Translations under genes and position numbers: made by a program
From: Mycolicibacterium phlei
GTDB lineage: Bacteria; Actinomycetota; Actinomycetes; Mycobacteriales; Mycobacteriaceae
DNA length: 64,000 bases
Assembly: GCF_001583415.1 (NCBI RefSeq)
Contig: NZ_CP014475.1
Location: 806,001 to 870,000, forward strand
Direction: 5' to 3'
Part shown: one piece after another, positions 41,811 to 50,003 of the stretch
Numbering within the stretch: the first letter of the stretch is position 1
Layout: every line of letters starts with the position of its first letter
The notes under the pieces: generated by a model
The model's database searches: none
What the model was told of the DNA's origin: nothing
The model's input: the letters and a program-made list of their open reading frames with translations, nothing else

Positions 41811-42734
41811 CTACAGCGTGTCGAAGAAGTCCTCGTCCAGCCGGTAGAGAGTCACCGACTGCTCCGGCTGAACGCCGATGCCATACTGCACCAACAGCTC
41901 GGCCAGCCGTGCGCCGTCTATAAGTTCAATGCGGGCGTTGATCCGCTCGGCCTCTTCGCGGGCACCTTTCGTGAACCGCGATGTTGTGATGAACACCCCG
42001 CGGTCGCCCTGCTTGGAAAGCAAGGCCCCAGCGAAGCCGTGAATTTGTGGTCTATCGACCGGTGTGTCGGTGTACCGCTTGGCCTGAATGTAGATGCGGT
42101 CTAGCCCGAGCGGGTCCTGGCTGATGATGCCGTCGATGCCGCCATCACCGGATGGGGCGGTTCGGTGAGCTGACCCGCGCGCACGCCCGTAACCCATGCG
42201 ATCGAGCAGCCGAACGACCAGTTCCTCGAAGCCGGTCGGCGACAGTTTGAGCGCAGCGGCCAATACTTCGCTTTCCACTGCTGCCCGGTTGATCCGCTCC
42301 GCGCGCTCGGCTAGATCGTTGGGCGTACTTGAGTCTTCCTCGGAGATCGACGGCTTCTCGGTTCCTTGGCCGTCGTCGGCGGGACGGTCTCGCTTGCGGT
42401 CACGGAACTCTAGATACGCCGGATACGCCTCCAGAGCCTTCATGTCGATCCGCTCGGGGTACTTGTCGAGCGCGGCGCGGCCCTCGTCGGAGATCGTCAC
42501 CAGCCCGCGTCCAGGCCGCTCGATGAGTCCCGCCTGACTTAGATAGGACATCGCCCATCCGCCCCGGTTGTCGATCCGCTTTTGTCCGCTCGGCACTTTC
42601 TCGGCCCGCTCTTCGGGGGTAAGGCCGAACTGGTCGGCCATCGCCTCGATGACATCCCGCGAACGATGAACCTCGCCGTCGGCTAGGTGGGCAAGTACCG
42701 GACGCATCAGCGTCTGGAAGTCGGGGATCGTCAC
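41811..42734 (-). CDS. Mrr-type restriction endonuclease
   Basis: A 307-residue protein with GTG start behind GGGAGG. Residues 1-90 form the Mrr N-terminal winged helix (PDFQTLMRPVLAHLADG ... GWAMSYLSQAGLIERPGRG). Residues 170-290 form the Mrr catalytic domain: GFEELVVRLLDRMGY, then D201 in GGIDGI and Q217-A-K219 in IYIQAKRY, the D-(Q/E)-x-K nuclease site. Mrr enzymes are type IV systems that cut modified DNA. No methyltransferase is adjacent, which fits that role. The gene converges on the EEP gene and is divergent from the OGG-fold gene. Confidence 0.88.
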   Translation of the reverse strand: MTIPDFQTLMRPVLAHLADGEVHRSRDVIEAMADQFGLTPEERAEKVPSGQKRIDNRGGWAMSYLSQAGLIERPGRGLVTISDEGRAALDKYPERIDMKALEAYPAYLEFRDRKRDRPADDGQGTEKPSISEEDSSTPNDLAERAERINRAAVESEVLAAALKLSPTGFEELVVRLLDRMGYGRARGSAHRTAPSGDGGIDGIISQDPLGLDRIYIQAKRYTDTPVDRPQIHGFAGALLSKQGDRGVFITTSRFTKGAREEAERINARIELIDGARLAELLVQYGIGVQPEQSVTLYRLDEDFFDTL

Positions 42735-43795: not shown

Positions 43796-43871
43796 TGGTG
43801 CCCCCGGCAGGATTCGAACCTGCGACACCGGCTTTAGGAGAGCCGTGCTCTATCCCCTGAGCTACGAGGGC
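43796..43871 (-). tRNA. tRNA-Arg (anticodon CCT)
   Basis: On the minus strand GCCCTCG and CGGGGGC form the acceptor stem (with G-T and G-G-type irregularity only at the fifth and sixth pairs), GCTC-AGGGGATA-GAGC the D arm, CGGCT-CTCCTAA-AGCCG the anticodon arm with anticodon CCT, and GCAGG-TTCGAAT-CCTGC the T arm. A73 is followed by an encoded CCA. Its 3' end faces the foreign island at 39862-43795, the usual orientation for integration into a tRNA 3' end, but I found no repeat of the tRNA 3' end at the island's left border. Confidence 0.95.
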
Positions 43872-43904: not shown

Positions 43905-44726
43905 CTACCGTAGCTCGGCGATCACCTTCGCGAACGCCTCGGCGTGCGGCTGCTGCACCGTGATGTAGGTGATGCCGTACTCGTCGCGGTAGCGGCGGAT
44001 CGTGTCGGCCATGTCCCGCGTCGACCCGGACAGCACCGCAGGCGTCGCCAGGATCTGCTCGTCCGACAGCCCGGGCAGGAACCGCCGCGGGATCGACAGG
44101 TCGGGCCGCCCCGAGCCGGCCACCGGCATCGCGGTCACCGACAGGTTCAGCTCCAGATCCGCGAACCGCTCCCCGGCGGCGGCCCGCACGAACGCGATCC
44201 GGTCGGCCAGCGGATCGTGGTCACCGGTGATCGGCGCCCCGCCCGTCAGCCCGATGATGTCGGCCCGCTGCGCGGCCAGCGTCAGCAGCTTGTCGCCGTT
44301 GCCCGCGATCAGCACCGGCACGTCGGGCACGTGCTTGCGGATGTGCCCGGTGACGTGCCCCAGCCACGCCACCCGCCGCCCCGGCGACGGGAACGCCAGC
44401 TCGGCCTGCTCGAACTCCTCCTTCACGTAGCCCGCCCCGAGGCCCAGGTCGAGCCGTCCGCCGCTAAGGTCGCGCAGTGTCGCGGCCTCCCGCGCCAGCA
44501 GCGCAGGCCGGTAGAACCCGGCGTTGAGCACGAACGTCCCGACCCGCAGCCGCTCGGTGGCCGTCGCCATCGCGGTCATCATCGGGAACGGCGCCGGTGC
44601 GTACAGGTGATCGGGCACGTGGACGATGTCGTAGCCCATGTCCTCGACACGACGGGCCCAGTCCTGCACCGACTTCTGCCGCCGCGCCGCCTGAATCCCG
44701 ACGCCGAACCGCCACGGTCTGGTCAT
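43905..44726 (-). CDS. LLM-class F420-dependent oxidoreductase
   Basis: A 273-residue TIM-barrel of the luciferase-like monooxygenase class: WRFGVGIQAARRQKSVQDWARRVEDMGYD, HVPDHLYAPAPFPMM, RLRVGTFVLNAGFYRP, and SGGRLDLGLGAGYVKEEF, the segment that binds deazaflavin in F420-dependent members. It is shorter than average for the group but looks intact, ending in EAFAKVIAEL. Mycobacteria encode many such enzymes, mostly with unknown substrates. The start at ATG 44726 is chosen because homology begins immediately; its 5' region is shared with the ybdK-type leader. Confidence 0.83.
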   Translation of the reverse strand: MTRPWRFGVGIQAARRQKSVQDWARRVEDMGYDIVHVPDHLYAPAPFPMMTAMATATERLRVGTFVLNAGFYRPALLAREAATLRDLSGGRLDLGLGAGYVKEEFEQAELAFPSPGRRVAWLGHVTGHIRKHVPDVPVLIAGNGDKLLTLAAQRADIIGLTGGAPITGDHDPLADRIAFVRAAAGERFADLELNLSVTAMPVAGSGRPDLSIPRRFLPGLSDEQILATPAVLSGSTRDMADTIRRYRDEYGITYITVQQPHAEAFAKVIAELR

Positions 44727-44893: not shown

Positions 44894-45994
44894 ATGGCCA
44901 CACACCCCACGCTCGGCGTCGAGGAGGAGTTCCTGCTCGTCGATCCCGCGAGCGGTGAACCGGTCGCGCGCAACGCCGCCGTCGCGCAGCAGGCCGCCGA
45001 CCGAGGGGTGGAACTGCAGCTCGAGCTGACCACCTGCCAGGTCGAGACCGCCACCGAGGCCGTCGGCTCCACCGCCGACCTGCGCGCGGAGCTGAGCCGG
45101 CTGCGCCGTGTGGCCGCCGACTCCGCCACCGCGGCCGGTGCGCGACTGCTCGCCGCCGGGCTGCCGCCCACCCTGCCGCGCGAGTTCCCGCTCACCGACA
45201 CCCCCCGCTATCGCGAGATCGGCGAGCGGTTCGGGATGATCGCCCACGAGCAGGGCATCTGCGGCTGCCACGTGCACGTCGCGGTGCCCAGCCGGGAGGC
45301 CGCGATCCGGGTCAGCAACCGGCTGCGGCCCTGGCTGCCGACCCTGCTGGCGCTGAGCGCCAACTCCGCCATCTACCGCAACGCCGACACCGGCCACGCC
45401 AGCTGGCGCAGCGTGTTGTGGGCGCGCTGGCCCAGCGCGGGCCCGCCGCCGCACTTCGACTCCGTCGACGAGTACGACGCCACCGTGGCGATGCTGCAGC
45501 ACGCCGGCGCCATGCTCGACGACGGGATGGTCTATTGGGACGTACGCCCGTCGCGCAACTTCCCGACCGTCGAGGTCCGCGTCGCCGACGAGCCCGCCAC
45601 CGTCGCCGACACCGTGCTGCTGGCCGCGCTCGTCCGCGCCGCGGTGATGACGGCGCTCGACGACGAACGCCGCCGCGAACCGGTCCCGCCGATCGCCCCG
45701 CACGCGCTGTCCGCGGCGTACTGGAAGTCCGCGCGCGACGGTGTCGACGGCGACGCGGTCGACCTGCTGGACAGCCACCAGACCATCCCCGCGCGGGACC
45801 TGCTCGACCGCTTCGTCGACCGTCTGCGGCCCGCGCTCGAGGCCGTCGGCGACTACGACCTCGTCGTCGACGAACTGCACCGCCTCGCCGAGACCGGCAA
45901 CGGTGCGACCCGGCAGCGCCGGGCGTGGCAGTCCCGCCACGACGTCGGTGACGTCGTCGCCGCGGTCGCCGACGCGACGCTCGAGGGCGTCTAG
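44894..45994 (+). CDS. YbdK-type carboxylate-amine ligase (glutamate-cysteine ligase 2 family)
   Basis: A 366-residue GCS2-family ligase. It starts TLGVEEEFLLVDPASGEPV, the ATP/glutamate-site opening, followed by QLELTTCQVETAT, GICGCHVHVAVPSREAA and RPSRNFPTVEVRVADEP. These enzymes join glutamate to an amine with ATP. E. coli YbdK has weak gamma-glutamylcysteine ligase activity. Mycobacteria use mycothiol instead of glutathione, so another gamma-glutamyl product is likely. The gene overlaps the serine hydrolase tail to tail (4 bases). The gamma-glutamyl hydrolase fusion two genes on may act on a related compound. Confidence 0.85.
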   Translation: MATHPTLGVEEEFLLVDPASGEPVARNAAVAQQAADRGVELQLELTTCQVETATEAVGSTADLRAELSRLRRVAADSATAAGARLLAAGLPPTLPREFPLTDTPRYREIGERFGMIAHEQGICGCHVHVAVPSREAAIRVSNRLRPWLPTLLALSANSAIYRNADTGHASWRSVLWARWPSAGPPPHFDSVDEYDATVAMLQHAGAMLDDGMVYWDVRPSRNFPTVEVRVADEPATVADTVLLAALVRAAVMTALDDERRREPVPPIAPHALSAAYWKSARDGVDGDAVDLLDSHQTIPARDLLDRFVDRLRPALEAVGDYDLVVDELHRLAETGNGATRQRRAWQSRHDVGDVVAAVADATLEGV

Positions 45995-46977
45995 GGGCAG
46001 TACAGCGCGGTGAGCACGTCGCCGCGCGGGTCGGCCGCCGGTGAGTCCGCCGCCGGCTCCTGCGTCAGCGTCATCGAGATCGCAGGACCGTCAACTGTTT
46101 TCGCGACGAAGCTGTGATAGCCGGGGATATCGCCTGCGTGCCCCCATGCCGTCACCCCGCACGGCAGCGCGATCCGGCCCAGGCCGAGCCCGTAGTCGAG
46201 GACTCCCTCGCCGTCCGGCATCGGGACCGTCCGCATCATCTCCTCCAGCAGCGCCGGCGGCACGACCTCGCCGTCGAGCAGCGCGGTGAGGAACGCGGTG
46301 GTGTCCTCGTTGGTCGACACCAGATCGCCCGACATCGCCGCGGCCGAGGCGTTGAAGTCGGTGACGTCGGTGCGCCGGCCGTCGACGAGTTCGTAGCCGC
46401 GGGCGAACGGCGCGCGCAGCCCGCGGTCCCCGGGGGCGGGGAAGTAGGTGTCGAACAGGCCCAGCGGCAGGATGATTCGCGCGGTGACCTCATCCGCCGC
46501 CGGCCTGCCCGTGACCTTCTCGATCAGCAGCCCGGCGACGACGTAGTTGGTGTTGGTGTAGCGCATCTGTGTGCCGGGTTCGAACTGCGCGGGGCGGGAC
46601 AGCGCCATGTCGAGCAACCGCTCACCGGTCACCGGAAGCTGTGGGACCTCGGTGACGTCGTCGAAGTACTCGGGCAGGCCGCTCTGGTGGCGCAGCAACT
46701 GGCGCACGGTGATGCGGGAGGCGTCGATGCCCTCACCGCGGACGCGGCCGGGCAGATAGTGCTCGACGGATGCGTCGAGGTCGATCCGGCCCTCGTCGAC
46801 GAGTTGCAGAACAGTCGCGGCGACAAAGGGTTTCGTGATGCTCGCGACGCGCACGTGGGTGTCCGGTGCGAATCCGGCGGCCGTCTCGACGGCCGACGGC
46901 TGCGCGTGGGCCGGTGGGGTGCGGACCGCGGTGAGGACCAGGAGGAGGGCGAGGACGGCGACGGCGGCGAGGCGCAT
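45991..46977 (-). CDS. Exported serine hydrolase (class C beta-lactamase / DD-peptidase family)
   Basis: A 328-residue protein with an N-terminal signal peptide (RLAAVAVLALLLVLTAVRTPPAHA) and probable cleavage after AHA. The nucleophile motif is SITK, the second motif YTN (RYTNTNYVVAG) and the third HAGD in WGHAGDIPGYHS. The residues between resemble D-alanyl-D-alanine carboxypeptidase / esterase relatives. The start could be ATG 46977 or GTG 46980; both overlap the stop of the upstream gamma-glutamyl hydrolase fusion. The close coupling suggests a joint role in the cell envelope or with exported gamma-glutamyl substrates. Confidence 0.82.
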   Translation of the reverse strand: MRLAAVAVLALLLVLTAVRTPPAHAQPSAVETAAGFAPDTHVRVASITKPFVAATVLQLVDEGRIDLDASVEHYLPGRVRGEGIDASRITVRQLLRHQSGLPEYFDDVTEVPQLPVTGERLLDMALSRPAQFEPGTQMRYTNTNYVVAGLLIEKVTGRPAADEVTARIILPLGLFDTYFPAPGDRGLRAPFARGYELVDGRRTDVTDFNASAAAMSGDLVSTNEDTTAFLTALLDGEVVPPALLEEMMRTVPMPDGEGVLDYGLGLGRIALPCGVTAWGHAGDIPGYHSFVAKTVDGPAISMTLTQEPAADSPAADPRGDVLTALYCP

Positions 46978-48038
46978 CACGCCGAGCGTAGTTCCCAGGA
47001 GTGCGCGGCCGCCACCAAACCCTGGACCAGCGCCGACGTCGCCGGGGTGAGTCCGTCGTCGCCGGGAAGCTGGCTGCGCGGGCTGATTCCGCGGATCCTC
47101 GGGGTCAACTCGAGTTGCACTCCGCCGCGACGGGTTCGGTTGACCGGGTTGTCGGGGTGCAGGCCCCTCAGCTCGCGGGGAATCGCGTCCAGATCGGTGA
47201 CGACGTGATAGCCGGGCACCTGCACGTGCCGGGCGAGGTGACGGGCCAGCTCACGGTTGCCGCCACCGGCGAGCAGCTGGGTGCTGCGGCCGATCCGGCC
47301 GTACCCGTGCAGCGACACCACCACGTCGACGTGGTCGAGGAACTCTGCCAGCCGGGCGGATTCGGCGGCCAGATACCGCGACGACGGCAGGTGGTGCGGG
47401 TAGTGGTCGGGGTGGTGCACCACGTACGCCGACGCGCCCGCGGCGTCGGCGGCGCGCAGGGCGATCACATCGGTCATCTGTTCCAGGCCGCCGCCGTGGA
47501 TCGCCAAAAACCCGAACCGCGACCGCAGCGTGCAGGTCTCCACGACGCCCGGCTGGGCCAGCAGATCCGAAAGCGTCTGCGGGACAGGGATGTCCGGGTA
47601 CTCGGGGCGCTGTGGCCAGTGCGCCGGGTCCCAGCGCCGCAGGAAGTCCACCCAGCGCGGCGGCAGCCCGTGGTGCAGCGCGCCGTCGATGATGCGCTCC
47701 AGGTATCCGGGCCGGGGCGGGCCGGGTTCGACGCGGTGGTCGATGTACACCCAGGCGTCGGTGGACCCGTCGTCGGTGTGCACGGTGAGCCGGTCGCGGC
47801 GGTAGCGCACCGGGACGCCCTCGGCGCTGTCGAGCACCTTGAGGTCGCGGTCGCTGAGCTGCCACACCACCCCGTGCACCACCGAGCCGTGGAACGGTTC
47901 GACGGTGGCCACACCGCGCTGGTTGATGAGCCAGTCGTGGTGGTCGAGTCGCGCGGGCGTCGGGTTGATCGCGTCCGGGCAGCGGGCCGCCATCTGTGCC
48001 ACGTTGAGGTTCGACCCGTAGGCGAAGTACCGGTGCAC
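46977..48038 (-). CDS. Gamma-glutamylcyclotransferase / poly-gamma-glutamate hydrolase fusion
   Basis: A 353-residue two-domain protein. Residues 1-150 form a gamma-glutamylcyclotransferase fold opening with HRYFAYGSNLN and containing the catalytic-type Glu in LDSAEGVPV. Residues 175-345 match the phage PghP-type poly-gamma-glutamate hydrolase: FLAIHGGGLEQMTD, VVSLHGYGR and NRTRRGGVQLELTPRIRG with zinc-type His residues. GTG 48038 is chosen because the fold begins there; an open frame continues upstream into a palindrome but lacks homology. Both domains attack gamma-glutamyl bonds, one releasing 5-oxoproline. No signal peptide is seen. Confidence 0.8.
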   Translation of the reverse strand: MHRYFAYGSNLNVAQMAARCPDAINPTPARLDHHDWLINQRGVATVEPFHGSVVHGVVWQLSDRDLKVLDSAEGVPVRYRRDRLTVHTDDGSTDAWVYIDHRVEPGPPRPGYLERIIDGALHHGLPPRWVDFLRRWDPAHWPQRPEYPDIPVPQTLSDLLAQPGVVETCTLRSRFGFLAIHGGGLEQMTDVIALRAADAAGASAYVVHHPDHYPHHLPSSRYLAAESARLAEFLDHVDVVVSLHGYGRIGRSTQLLAGGGNRELARHLARHVQVPGYHVVTDLDAIPRELRGLHPDNPVNRTRRGGVQLELTPRIRGISPRSQLPGDDGLTPATSALVQGLVAAAHSWELRSA

Positions 48039-48063
48039 GAAGTCAGGCTGCCATATGCCGCTC

Positions 48064-48117
48064 GTTTGTGAATCTGACGACGTTTCGGGCGCGCGAAGCG
48101 TCGCCAGATGCACAAAC
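48064..48117. repeat. Near-perfect 24-bp inverted repeat with 6-base loop
   Basis: Arms at 48064-48087 and 48094-48117 match at 21 of 24 positions around the loop GGCGCG. The outer arm is GTTTGTG-x-ATCTG-x-CGACG. It lies between the mntH stop (48129) and the fusion gene start (48038), without a T tract. It looks like a palindromic intergenic element or REP-type repeat rather than a simple terminator. Confidence 0.75.
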
Positions 48118-48128
48118 GGCGTCCGCGC

Positions 48129-49367
48129 TCAGCCCGCCACGGTCAGGTAGATCAGCACGACGTTCAGCGCGCTGATCAGTGCGGCGACGAGCCAGCCCAG
48201 CGCCGTCGTCACCCGGTGGTTGGTGTCCTCGCCCATCAGCGCGCGGTCCCCGGTGAGCCGGATCAGCGGGATCAGCGCGAACGGGATCCCGAACGACAGC
48301 ACCACCTGCGACAGCACCAGCGCGCGGCTCGGGTCGACGCCGATCGCGAGGATGACCAGCGCGGGCAGCAGCGTGACCAGCCGTCGCACCAGCAGCGGAA
48401 TGTTCTTGTGCAGCAGGCCCTGCATGATCATCGCGCCGGCGTACGCGCCCACCGACGACGACGCCAGCCCCGACGCCAGCAGCCCGATCGCGAACAGCAG
48501 CGCGACCGTCGAACCGAGCGTGTCACCGACCGCGGCGTGCGCGCCCTCGATCGACTCGGTCAGGTTCCTGCCCTGCAGGTTGGTCGCCGCGACCAGCACC
48601 ATCGACAGGTTGACCGCGCCGGCGATGACCATCGCGATCCCGACGTCCCATTTGGTGACGCGCAGCAGCCGGCGCCGCGCCGGGCCCGCGTCGGGGTGCC
48701 CGTGCCGGTCGCGGACCAGCGCGGAGTGCAGGTACACCGCGTGCGGCATGACGGTCGCGCCCAGCATGGCCGCCGCGATCAGCACGCTCTCGGTGCCGGC
48801 GAACCGCGGCACCAGCCCGCCCGCGACCTCGCCGACCGGGGGTGCGGACACGACCAGGCTGGCCAGGAAGCCGACCGCGATGACGGCGAGCAGGCCGGTG
48901 ATGACCCGCTCGAACATGCCCTGTCCGCGGCGGTCCTTGATGATCAGCAGCAGCAGCGACACCACGCCGGTGATGACGCCGCCGACGAGCAGGGGCAGGT
49001 CGAACAGCAGATACAGCGCGATCGCCCCGCCCACCACCTCGGCGAGATCGGTTGCCATCGCCACGAGCTCGGCCTGCAGCCAGTAGGCCAGCCGCGTCGG
49101 CCGACGCATCCGGGACCCGACCGCCTCCGGCAGCGACATCCCGCTGACCAGCCCGAGTTTCGCCGACAGGTACTGCACCAGGCAGGCCATCGCGTTGGCC
49201 GCGACGATCACCCACACCAGCAGGAAGCCGAACTGCGCGCCCGCGCTGACGTTGGCCGCGACGTTGCCGGGGTCGACGTAGGCGATCGCGGCGACGAACG
49301 CCGGCCCGAGCAGCAACCAGCCCGGGCGGGTGCGTGTCTCGTCGCTGCGGTAGCCGCTCGGAATCAC
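48129..49367 (-). CDS. mntH: Nramp-family divalent metal (Mn/Fe) transporter MntH
   Basis: A 412-residue, eleven-helix transporter. The metal site is DPGN in AYVDPGNVAANV (helix 1) and MPHAVYLHSAL (helix 6), both diagnostic for Nramp. The N-terminus PGWLLLGPAFVAAIAYVDPGN is close to M. tuberculosis MntH (Rv0924c), and the position before the Rv0927c-type SDR agrees. The start is GTG 49367; TAAAGT lies 6 bases before it, pointing to a leaderless transcript. Proton-coupled Mn2+ uptake is the usual role. A palindrome 35 bases upstream may be a metal-regulator site. Confidence 0.92.
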   Translation of the reverse strand: MIPSGYRSDETRTRPGWLLLGPAFVAAIAYVDPGNVAANVSAGAQFGFLLVWVIVAANAMACLVQYLSAKLGLVSGMSLPEAVGSRMRRPTRLAYWLQAELVAMATDLAEVVGGAIALYLLFDLPLLVGGVITGVVSLLLLIIKDRRGQGMFERVITGLLAVIAVGFLASLVVSAPPVGEVAGGLVPRFAGTESVLIAAAMLGATVMPHAVYLHSALVRDRHGHPDAGPARRRLLRVTKWDVGIAMVIAGAVNLSMVLVAATNLQGRNLTESIEGAHAAVGDTLGSTVALLFAIGLLASGLASSSVGAYAGAMIMQGLLHKNIPLLVRRLVTLLPALVILAIGVDPSRALVLSQVVLSFGIPFALIPLIRLTGDRALMGEDTNHRVTTALGWLVAALISALNVVLIYLTVAG

Positions 49368-49420: not shown

Positions 49421-49645
49421 CTACTTACCGCCCAGGTTGATCACGATCGCGCCGCCCCACGGCCAGCTGGCCCAGGTCTGGTTCGTCGTGATCGACGGTG
49501 ACGTGACGATCTGCGAGCTGCCGTTGGTGTGGCACTGCGTGGTGTTGGGTGCGGTCGTGGTGCACTGGGGCGCCGCCCCTGCCGTGGGCGCGAGAAGAAC
49601 CGCCGCCGCAGCGGCGGGCAGCGTCACCCAGGCCCACCGGATCAC
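49421..49645 (-). CDS. Small exported protein 2
   Basis: A 74-residue protein with GTG start overlapping the stop of the preceding small gene (GTGA). A signal peptide covers about 25 residues (WVTLPAAAAAVLLAPTAGAAP), followed by a short mature part with two Cys (PQCTTTAPNTTQCHTNGS) that could form one disulfide, then a Thr/Ser-rich segment and WPWGGAIVINLGG. This looks like one of the small secreted actinobacterial proteins with no defined function. Confidence 0.6.
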   Translation of the reverse strand: MIRWAWVTLPAAAAAVLLAPTAGAAPQCTTTAPNTTQCHTNGSSQIVTSPSITTNQTWASWPWGGAIVINLGGK

Positions 49646-49896
49646 GGGAAGAAGAAGCCCTCGCCGCCCCACATGTTGCCCCACGGGCCGACGAACTCCT
49701 GCTCGGCAGGGGTGGCGTCGATCGACACGTTGCCGGGCGTCGCGCACTCGGTCGTGCTGCCGCCGAGCGCCTCCGCGCCGCCGGTGTCGACACACTTGGG
49801 GAGGTCCTGGGCCGTGGCCATCGGAGCCAAAGCGAGCGCTGCCGCGACACCCCCAGCGGCGATCACCGGAGCGAGAAAACGAATCGTGGTCCCCAT
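49642..49896 (-). CDS. Small exported protein 1
   Basis: An 84-residue protein from ATG 49896 behind AAGGAT. The signal peptide is RFLAPVIAAGGVAAALALAPMATAQ, and the mature chain is about 55 residues with two Cys (LPKCVDTGG and TTECATPGN) and an aromatic, glycine-rich end (GPWGNMWGGEGFFFP). It is coupled to the second small exported protein, which has the same signal/two-Cys/Trp-Gly-rich layout, suggesting a duplicated pair. No function is known. Confidence 0.65.
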   Translation of the reverse strand: MGTTIRFLAPVIAAGGVAAALALAPMATAQDLPKCVDTGGAEALGGSTTECATPGNVSIDATPAEQEFVGPWGNMWGGEGFFFP

Positions 49897-50003
49897 ACAC
49901 ACATCCTTCGGTTATCGGGCCATCCCGACCTCAGCGACAGCGTACAACTCTTACCGGCGGTTTCCCGGCTAACGCTTCGTCACAGCTCGGGTCATGGGTC
50001 GGG

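Follow-up and report, generated by a model that had tools for sequence, protein, structure and literature searches.

A gamma-glutamylcyclotransferase and a PghP-type hydrolase in one reading frame

The window analysed here, a 64,000-nucleotide stretch of the Mycolicibacterium phlei genome, carries on its minus strand a gene that joins a gamma-glutamylcyclotransferase (GGCT) to a poly-gamma-glutamate hydrolase of the PghP type in a single chain. The gene, its two domains and its neighbors are the following:

46977..48038, minus strand: GGCT-PghP fusion gene, 353 aa, GTG start at 48038, stop at 46977-46979
47616..48038, minus strand: N-terminal GGCT domain, residues 1-141, with YGSNL at 7-11 and catalytic-type Glu73; Z 21.4 to human GGCT 2rbh
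46980..47564, minus strand: C-terminal PghP-type zinc hydrolase domain, residues 159-353, with His181, Glu186, His244 and Glu310; Z 21.3 to 3a9l, 20.1 to YndL 5onj
48063..48118, no strand assigned: palindrome of 56 bp between mntH and the fusion gene, 28-nt arms, 86% complementary
48129..49367, minus strand: mntH, Nramp Mn2+ uptake transporter, upstream on the same strand and a conserved partner
45991..46980, minus strand: serine hydrolase of the beta-lactamase fold with an apparent signal peptide, overlapping the fusion gene by 4 bp
44894..45994, plus strand: YbdK-type carboxylate-amine (glutamate-cysteine) ligase, convergent with the fusion gene
43905..44723, minus strand: TIGR03621 family F420-dependent LLM oxidoreductase, downstream on the same strand

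The fusion is encoded by a single uninterrupted ORF of 353 codons plus stop. Because its orthologs open with MH[A/T]YFAYGSN, in several species directly after the mntH stop, the GTG at 48038 is the likely start, an alternative in-frame start being present further upstream at 48113. In many relatives mntH and the fusion gene lie much closer together than here, so that the palindrome at 48063-48118, whose abutting arms have no other copy within the window, may represent either an element inserted at this place or a terminator.

Both halves were recognized by domain profiles and by comparison with known structures. In the N-terminal half, Pfam GGACT (residues 4-100, 1.6e-13) and AIG2_2 (residues 54-133, 2.2e-15) matched above cut-off, the GGCT/AIG2-like profiles (PF06094, PF13772) scoring 51.7 and 57.3 bits against curated cut-offs of 22.8 and 27, and human GGCT was the PDB sequence match for residues 3-141. 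An AlphaFold2 model of the fusion, built from 42 sequences, reached a mean pLDDT of 89.5 and a pTM of 0.79, and its residues 1-141 superposed on 2rbh with a Z of 21.4 and an rmsd of 2.2 over 141 residues (VIA-align). Glu73, located within LDSAEGV, aligns with a human GGCT position occupied by Glu in the wild type but by Gln or Ala in the variant structures 3cry and 2rbh, and 105 of the 106 fusions carry both YGSNL and Glu73. The mycobacterial domain thus shares with human GGCT (C7orf24; 2pn7, 2rbh, 3cry) the fold, 32% identity, the YGSNL motif and the catalytic Glu, whereas the human protein stands alone and the mycobacterial one is joined to a zinc hydrolase. Human GGCT is tied to glutathione, which mycobacteria do not have.

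The C-terminal half matched Pfam Gamma_PGA_hydro (PF05908) at residues 166-316 with an E-value of 3.1e-33 and 115.3 bits against a cut-off of 22, and YndL and PghP were the PDB sequence matches for residues 173-314. His181, Glu186, His244 and Glu310 are invariant among 42 full-length and single-domain relatives as well as in the 106 fusions, and so are Arg248, Arg262, Asn297, Asn300, Arg314 and Arg316. The first four correspond in the alignment to HAGGIE, FHGY and QLE of the phage phiNIT1 PghP (3a9l), in which His, Glu and His bind zinc. Residues 150-352 of the model gave Z scores of 21.3 to 3a9l (rmsd 3.1 over 192 residues), 21.3 to the phage PM1 PghP (21dc) and 20.1 to Bacillus subtilis YndL in complex with a gamma-PGA pentamer (5onj). 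The mycobacterial domain therefore resembles these members of PF05908 in fold, in the His-Glu-His metal motif and in the C-terminal Glu; it differs from them in that they are stand-alone proteins of phage or prophage origin and 21 to 22% identical to it, and in that its own clade has additional invariant residues, among them Arg 248, 262, 314 and 316. In a separate PghP-like protein (L183:1432-2079, genome G946), HGGGLE is replaced by HGSNE, which represents a shifted metal motif.

Distribution and selection

Among 148 sampled genomes of the genus, the fusion is a single-frame, full-length protein in 113, broken or partial in nine and absent from 26. Together with the Pfam and PDB matches, the model and the invariant residues, this substantiates the preliminary description, which had proposed a one-chain fusion of the two domains; of the observations named there as speaking against it, two start sites with separate products or lost zinc ligands, neither was found, and the ligands of the hydrolase domain are retained. 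The fusion is real, an unusual combination of ordinary parts. Pairwise dN/dS was about 0.18 for the GGCT domain, 0.19 for the PghP domain and 0.32 for the linker, and both halves are under purifying selection of similar strength.

Outside the genus, a 251-genome family sample contained one full-length fusion (G175, 59%) and one PghP-only ortholog (G183, 62%). At the phylum level PF05908 was present in 24 of 396 genomes, outside the genus mostly in single-domain proteins that share 44 to 60% identity with the C-terminal half. For the single-domain orthologs L128 and L149-L159 from other Actinomycetota the identity to this domain is 44 to 63%; they keep the same invariant residues, but measure about 200 to 240 aa, lack a GGCT domain and have no TIGR03621-type oxidoreductase nearby. 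In family f29, the single-domain PghP gene lies directly behind a gene for a CcdA-like membrane protein and faces pdxH-like and serS-like genes (L165, L166, L168 and L172; names assigned by eye). No phage or plasmid record contained the fusion, by the criterion of one place covering 80% of the protein, and no NCBIfam model matched it.

The two domains are separable. Five genomes (G128, G045, G105, G072 and G029) have lost the PghP core with the GGCT motifs intact, and in one of them, G105, deletion of PghP has left the GGCT domain running in frame into the downstream TIGR03621 oxidoreductase, giving 456 aa without a stop (L193:968-2338). The reverse is seen in G175 of genus g29 (L126:1492-2544), where the PghP site is preserved but the GGCT half has YDIHL instead of YGSNL and no longer contains Glu73. 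Some of these reduced copies may be decaying genes. Since the domains part ways in evolution, in both directions, each can matter alone and their coupling in series is not essential.

Gene neighborhood

Gene order was compared at 80 loci, which were those that matched the query protein best and thus form an uneven sample. Of the 74 with enough upstream sequence, 62 have a co-oriented mntH no more than 200 bp upstream, and of the 69 with enough sequence, 52 have the TIGR03621 oxidoreductase downstream in the same orientation; these counts are inflated and overstate independence because the region is broadly syntenic. The conserved neighbors are hence mntH upstream and the TIGR03621 F420-dependent oxidoreductase downstream. 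Direct adjacency of the oxidoreductase (60 bp or less) was observed in 22 of 79 loci, a state that must have changed at least twice on the protein tree, the adjacent clades being one of 19 members (with gordonae, asiaticum and triplex) and an aquaticum/brisbanense clade of three; in this window the YbdK and serine hydrolase genes stand between it and the fusion gene.

These two intervening genes had figured in the preliminary description as close partners of the fusion. Coupling to the serine hydrolase holds for the 4 bp overlap found here, but the two genes are adjacent in just 8 of 79 loci, and we rejected such an operon as a defining feature. The YbdK-type ligase gene is indeed close by, yet it lies on the opposite strand and outside the operon. 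Of 69 loci, 36 have it within 6 kb in convergent orientation, and it never runs in the direction of the fusion gene, so that it was discarded as an operon mate.

Two further features of the window were noted. Upstream of mntH, at 49421-49902, overlapping short ORFs encode small secreted Cys-containing proteins, and similar pairs of short ORFs precede mntH in three other loci (L031, L042, L059). At 41811-42734, near a tRNA-Arg at 43796, a protein resembling Mrr-type restriction endonucleases was recognized by eye.

Discussion

The single chain, both folds, both catalytic sets, the conservation across the genus and the gene order are computed results. From them we infer, with somewhat better than even confidence, that the fusion acts in the cytosol as a bifunctional enzyme on gamma-glutamyl bonds, the two activities, their action in series, the cellular location and the substrate all belonging to the inferred part. 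The C-terminal metal-dependent hydrolase of the PghP/YndL family would cleave between gamma-linked glutamates, and the N-terminal GGCT would take the N-terminal gamma-glutamyl residue off the released oligomers as 5-oxoproline, which a 5-oxoprolinase would turn back into glutamate. This two-step chemistry, with the hydrolase supplying oligomers and the cyclotransferase 5-oxoproline as the preliminary description had it, is plausible, and the genome encodes a homolog of the PxpA-type 5-oxoprolinase subunit that can be expected to take 5-oxoproline further. By eye, no signal peptide was seen before the GGCT strand of the fusion, unlike two secreted PghPs of the Streptomyces-like genus g34, which have Tat-like leaders; this argues for an internal substrate. 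We therefore favor a role in trimming cytosolic poly-gamma-glutamyl chains, which in mycobacteria are the F420 tail and the folates, and regard the F420 tail (or folate) as the leading candidate.

The mycobacterial F420 tail consists of 5 to 7 gamma-linked glutamates, and the control of its length was called unsolved in a 2026 review (PMC12855090); the literature passages on F420 tail removal that we retrieved describe no tail-removing enzyme. Oligomers cut from F420 would carry the free alpha-amino end that the cyclotransferase requires. An F420 link is suggested within the genus by the neighboring TIGR03621 oxidoreductase and by the in-frame GGCT-TIGR03621 protein of G105, although the M. 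phlei genome has about 60 luciferase-like matches, and one of them near any given gene is not rare. Outside the genus, neither F420-linked neighbors nor a TIGR03621-type oxidoreductase were found beside the single-domain PghP orthologs. An F420 ligase was encoded by each of the 18 genomes with PghP that were examined outside the genus, but since most genomes without PghP have one as well, this co-occurrence is weak and has little power, and we discarded it as proof of an F420 link. Given the missing oxidoreductase beside the single-domain orthologs and the weak co-occurrence, we assign the F420 tail as substrate of the fusion only tentatively, as a possibility well short of even. The more specific proposal, for which our confidence is low, is that the fusion is the missing tail-shortening factor, in which PghP would remove oligo-gamma-glutamate and GGCT would convert it to 5-oxoproline, such that the balance between the ligase FbiB and the fusion would set the tail length and thereby tune F420-dependent enzymes.

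Other substrates have to be considered. Turnover of folate polyglutamates, in which the hydrolase would trim the gamma-glutamate tails and the cyclotransferase would remove the glutamyl pieces set free, would explain why PghP orthologs occur in other classes without F420 gene neighbors, as folates are universal and have gamma-linked tails; with no folate gene recognized beside either the fusion or its single-domain relatives, however, we consider this role improbable. Much the same low likelihood applies to a salvage of short gamma-glutamyl peptides, either peptidoglycan pieces (gamma-D-Glu-mDAP) or products of YbdK/EgtA-type ligases. It would fit the convergent YbdK-type gene found within 6 kb in about half of the loci and the resemblance of the PghP domain to peptidoglycan amidase and N-formylglutamate amidohydrolase folds (Z 11 to 12), but PghP and YndL are clearly the best structural matches (Z 20 to 21) and YbdK never shares the strand of the fusion.

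Two further readings fare slightly worse than these. That one domain alone is the working enzyme in vivo, the other being structural or regulatory, is suggested by the degenerate GGCT of G175 next to an intact PghP site and by the five genomes that retain only the GGCT motifs; we think it unlikely, considering that all but one of the 106 fusions retain both catalytic sets and that the halves are under similar purifying selection. Equally unlikely is the use or clearance of external gamma-PGA (a Bacillus capsule or soil polymer) by an enzyme possibly derived from a phage PghP. The founding PghP is a phage enzyme cutting gamma-PGA (PMC4497714), and the YndL structure contains a PGA pentamer, but the fusion has no visible signal peptide where two Streptomyces-type PghPs have Tat-like leaders. 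Its gene occurs widely across the genus in a syntenic position, unlike the cargo of a prophage, and the fusion is absent from phage and plasmid records, which likewise makes the phage or host capsule considered in the preliminary description an unlikely substrate.

PghP-like proteins have been reported from mycobacteria including M. tuberculosis, usually one per genome (PMC4497714). In a domain table of PMC3388012, DUF867 and AIG2-like occupy neighboring entries with an identical P-value, a pairing that fits one fused protein, on which the passage itself is silent. For M. tuberculosis, PMC3856593 gives Rv0923c as a conserved hypothetical adjoining mntH (Rv0924c), and the other literature passages on Rv0923c that were retrieved contain SNP listings or a cosmid boundary only. 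Rv0923c is a probable ortholog by this gene order and by the reported M. tuberculosis PghP-like proteins (PMC3856593, PMC4497714). It is thus probably the M. tuberculosis copy of the fusion. In the open-access literature we found no paper describing a GGCT-PghP fusion, while domain databases may hold it. A genus-wide bifunctional gamma-glutamyl enzyme would be a concrete candidate for the mycobacterial control of glutamate tails on folate or on F420, the cofactor needed for the activation of nitroimidazole prodrugs.
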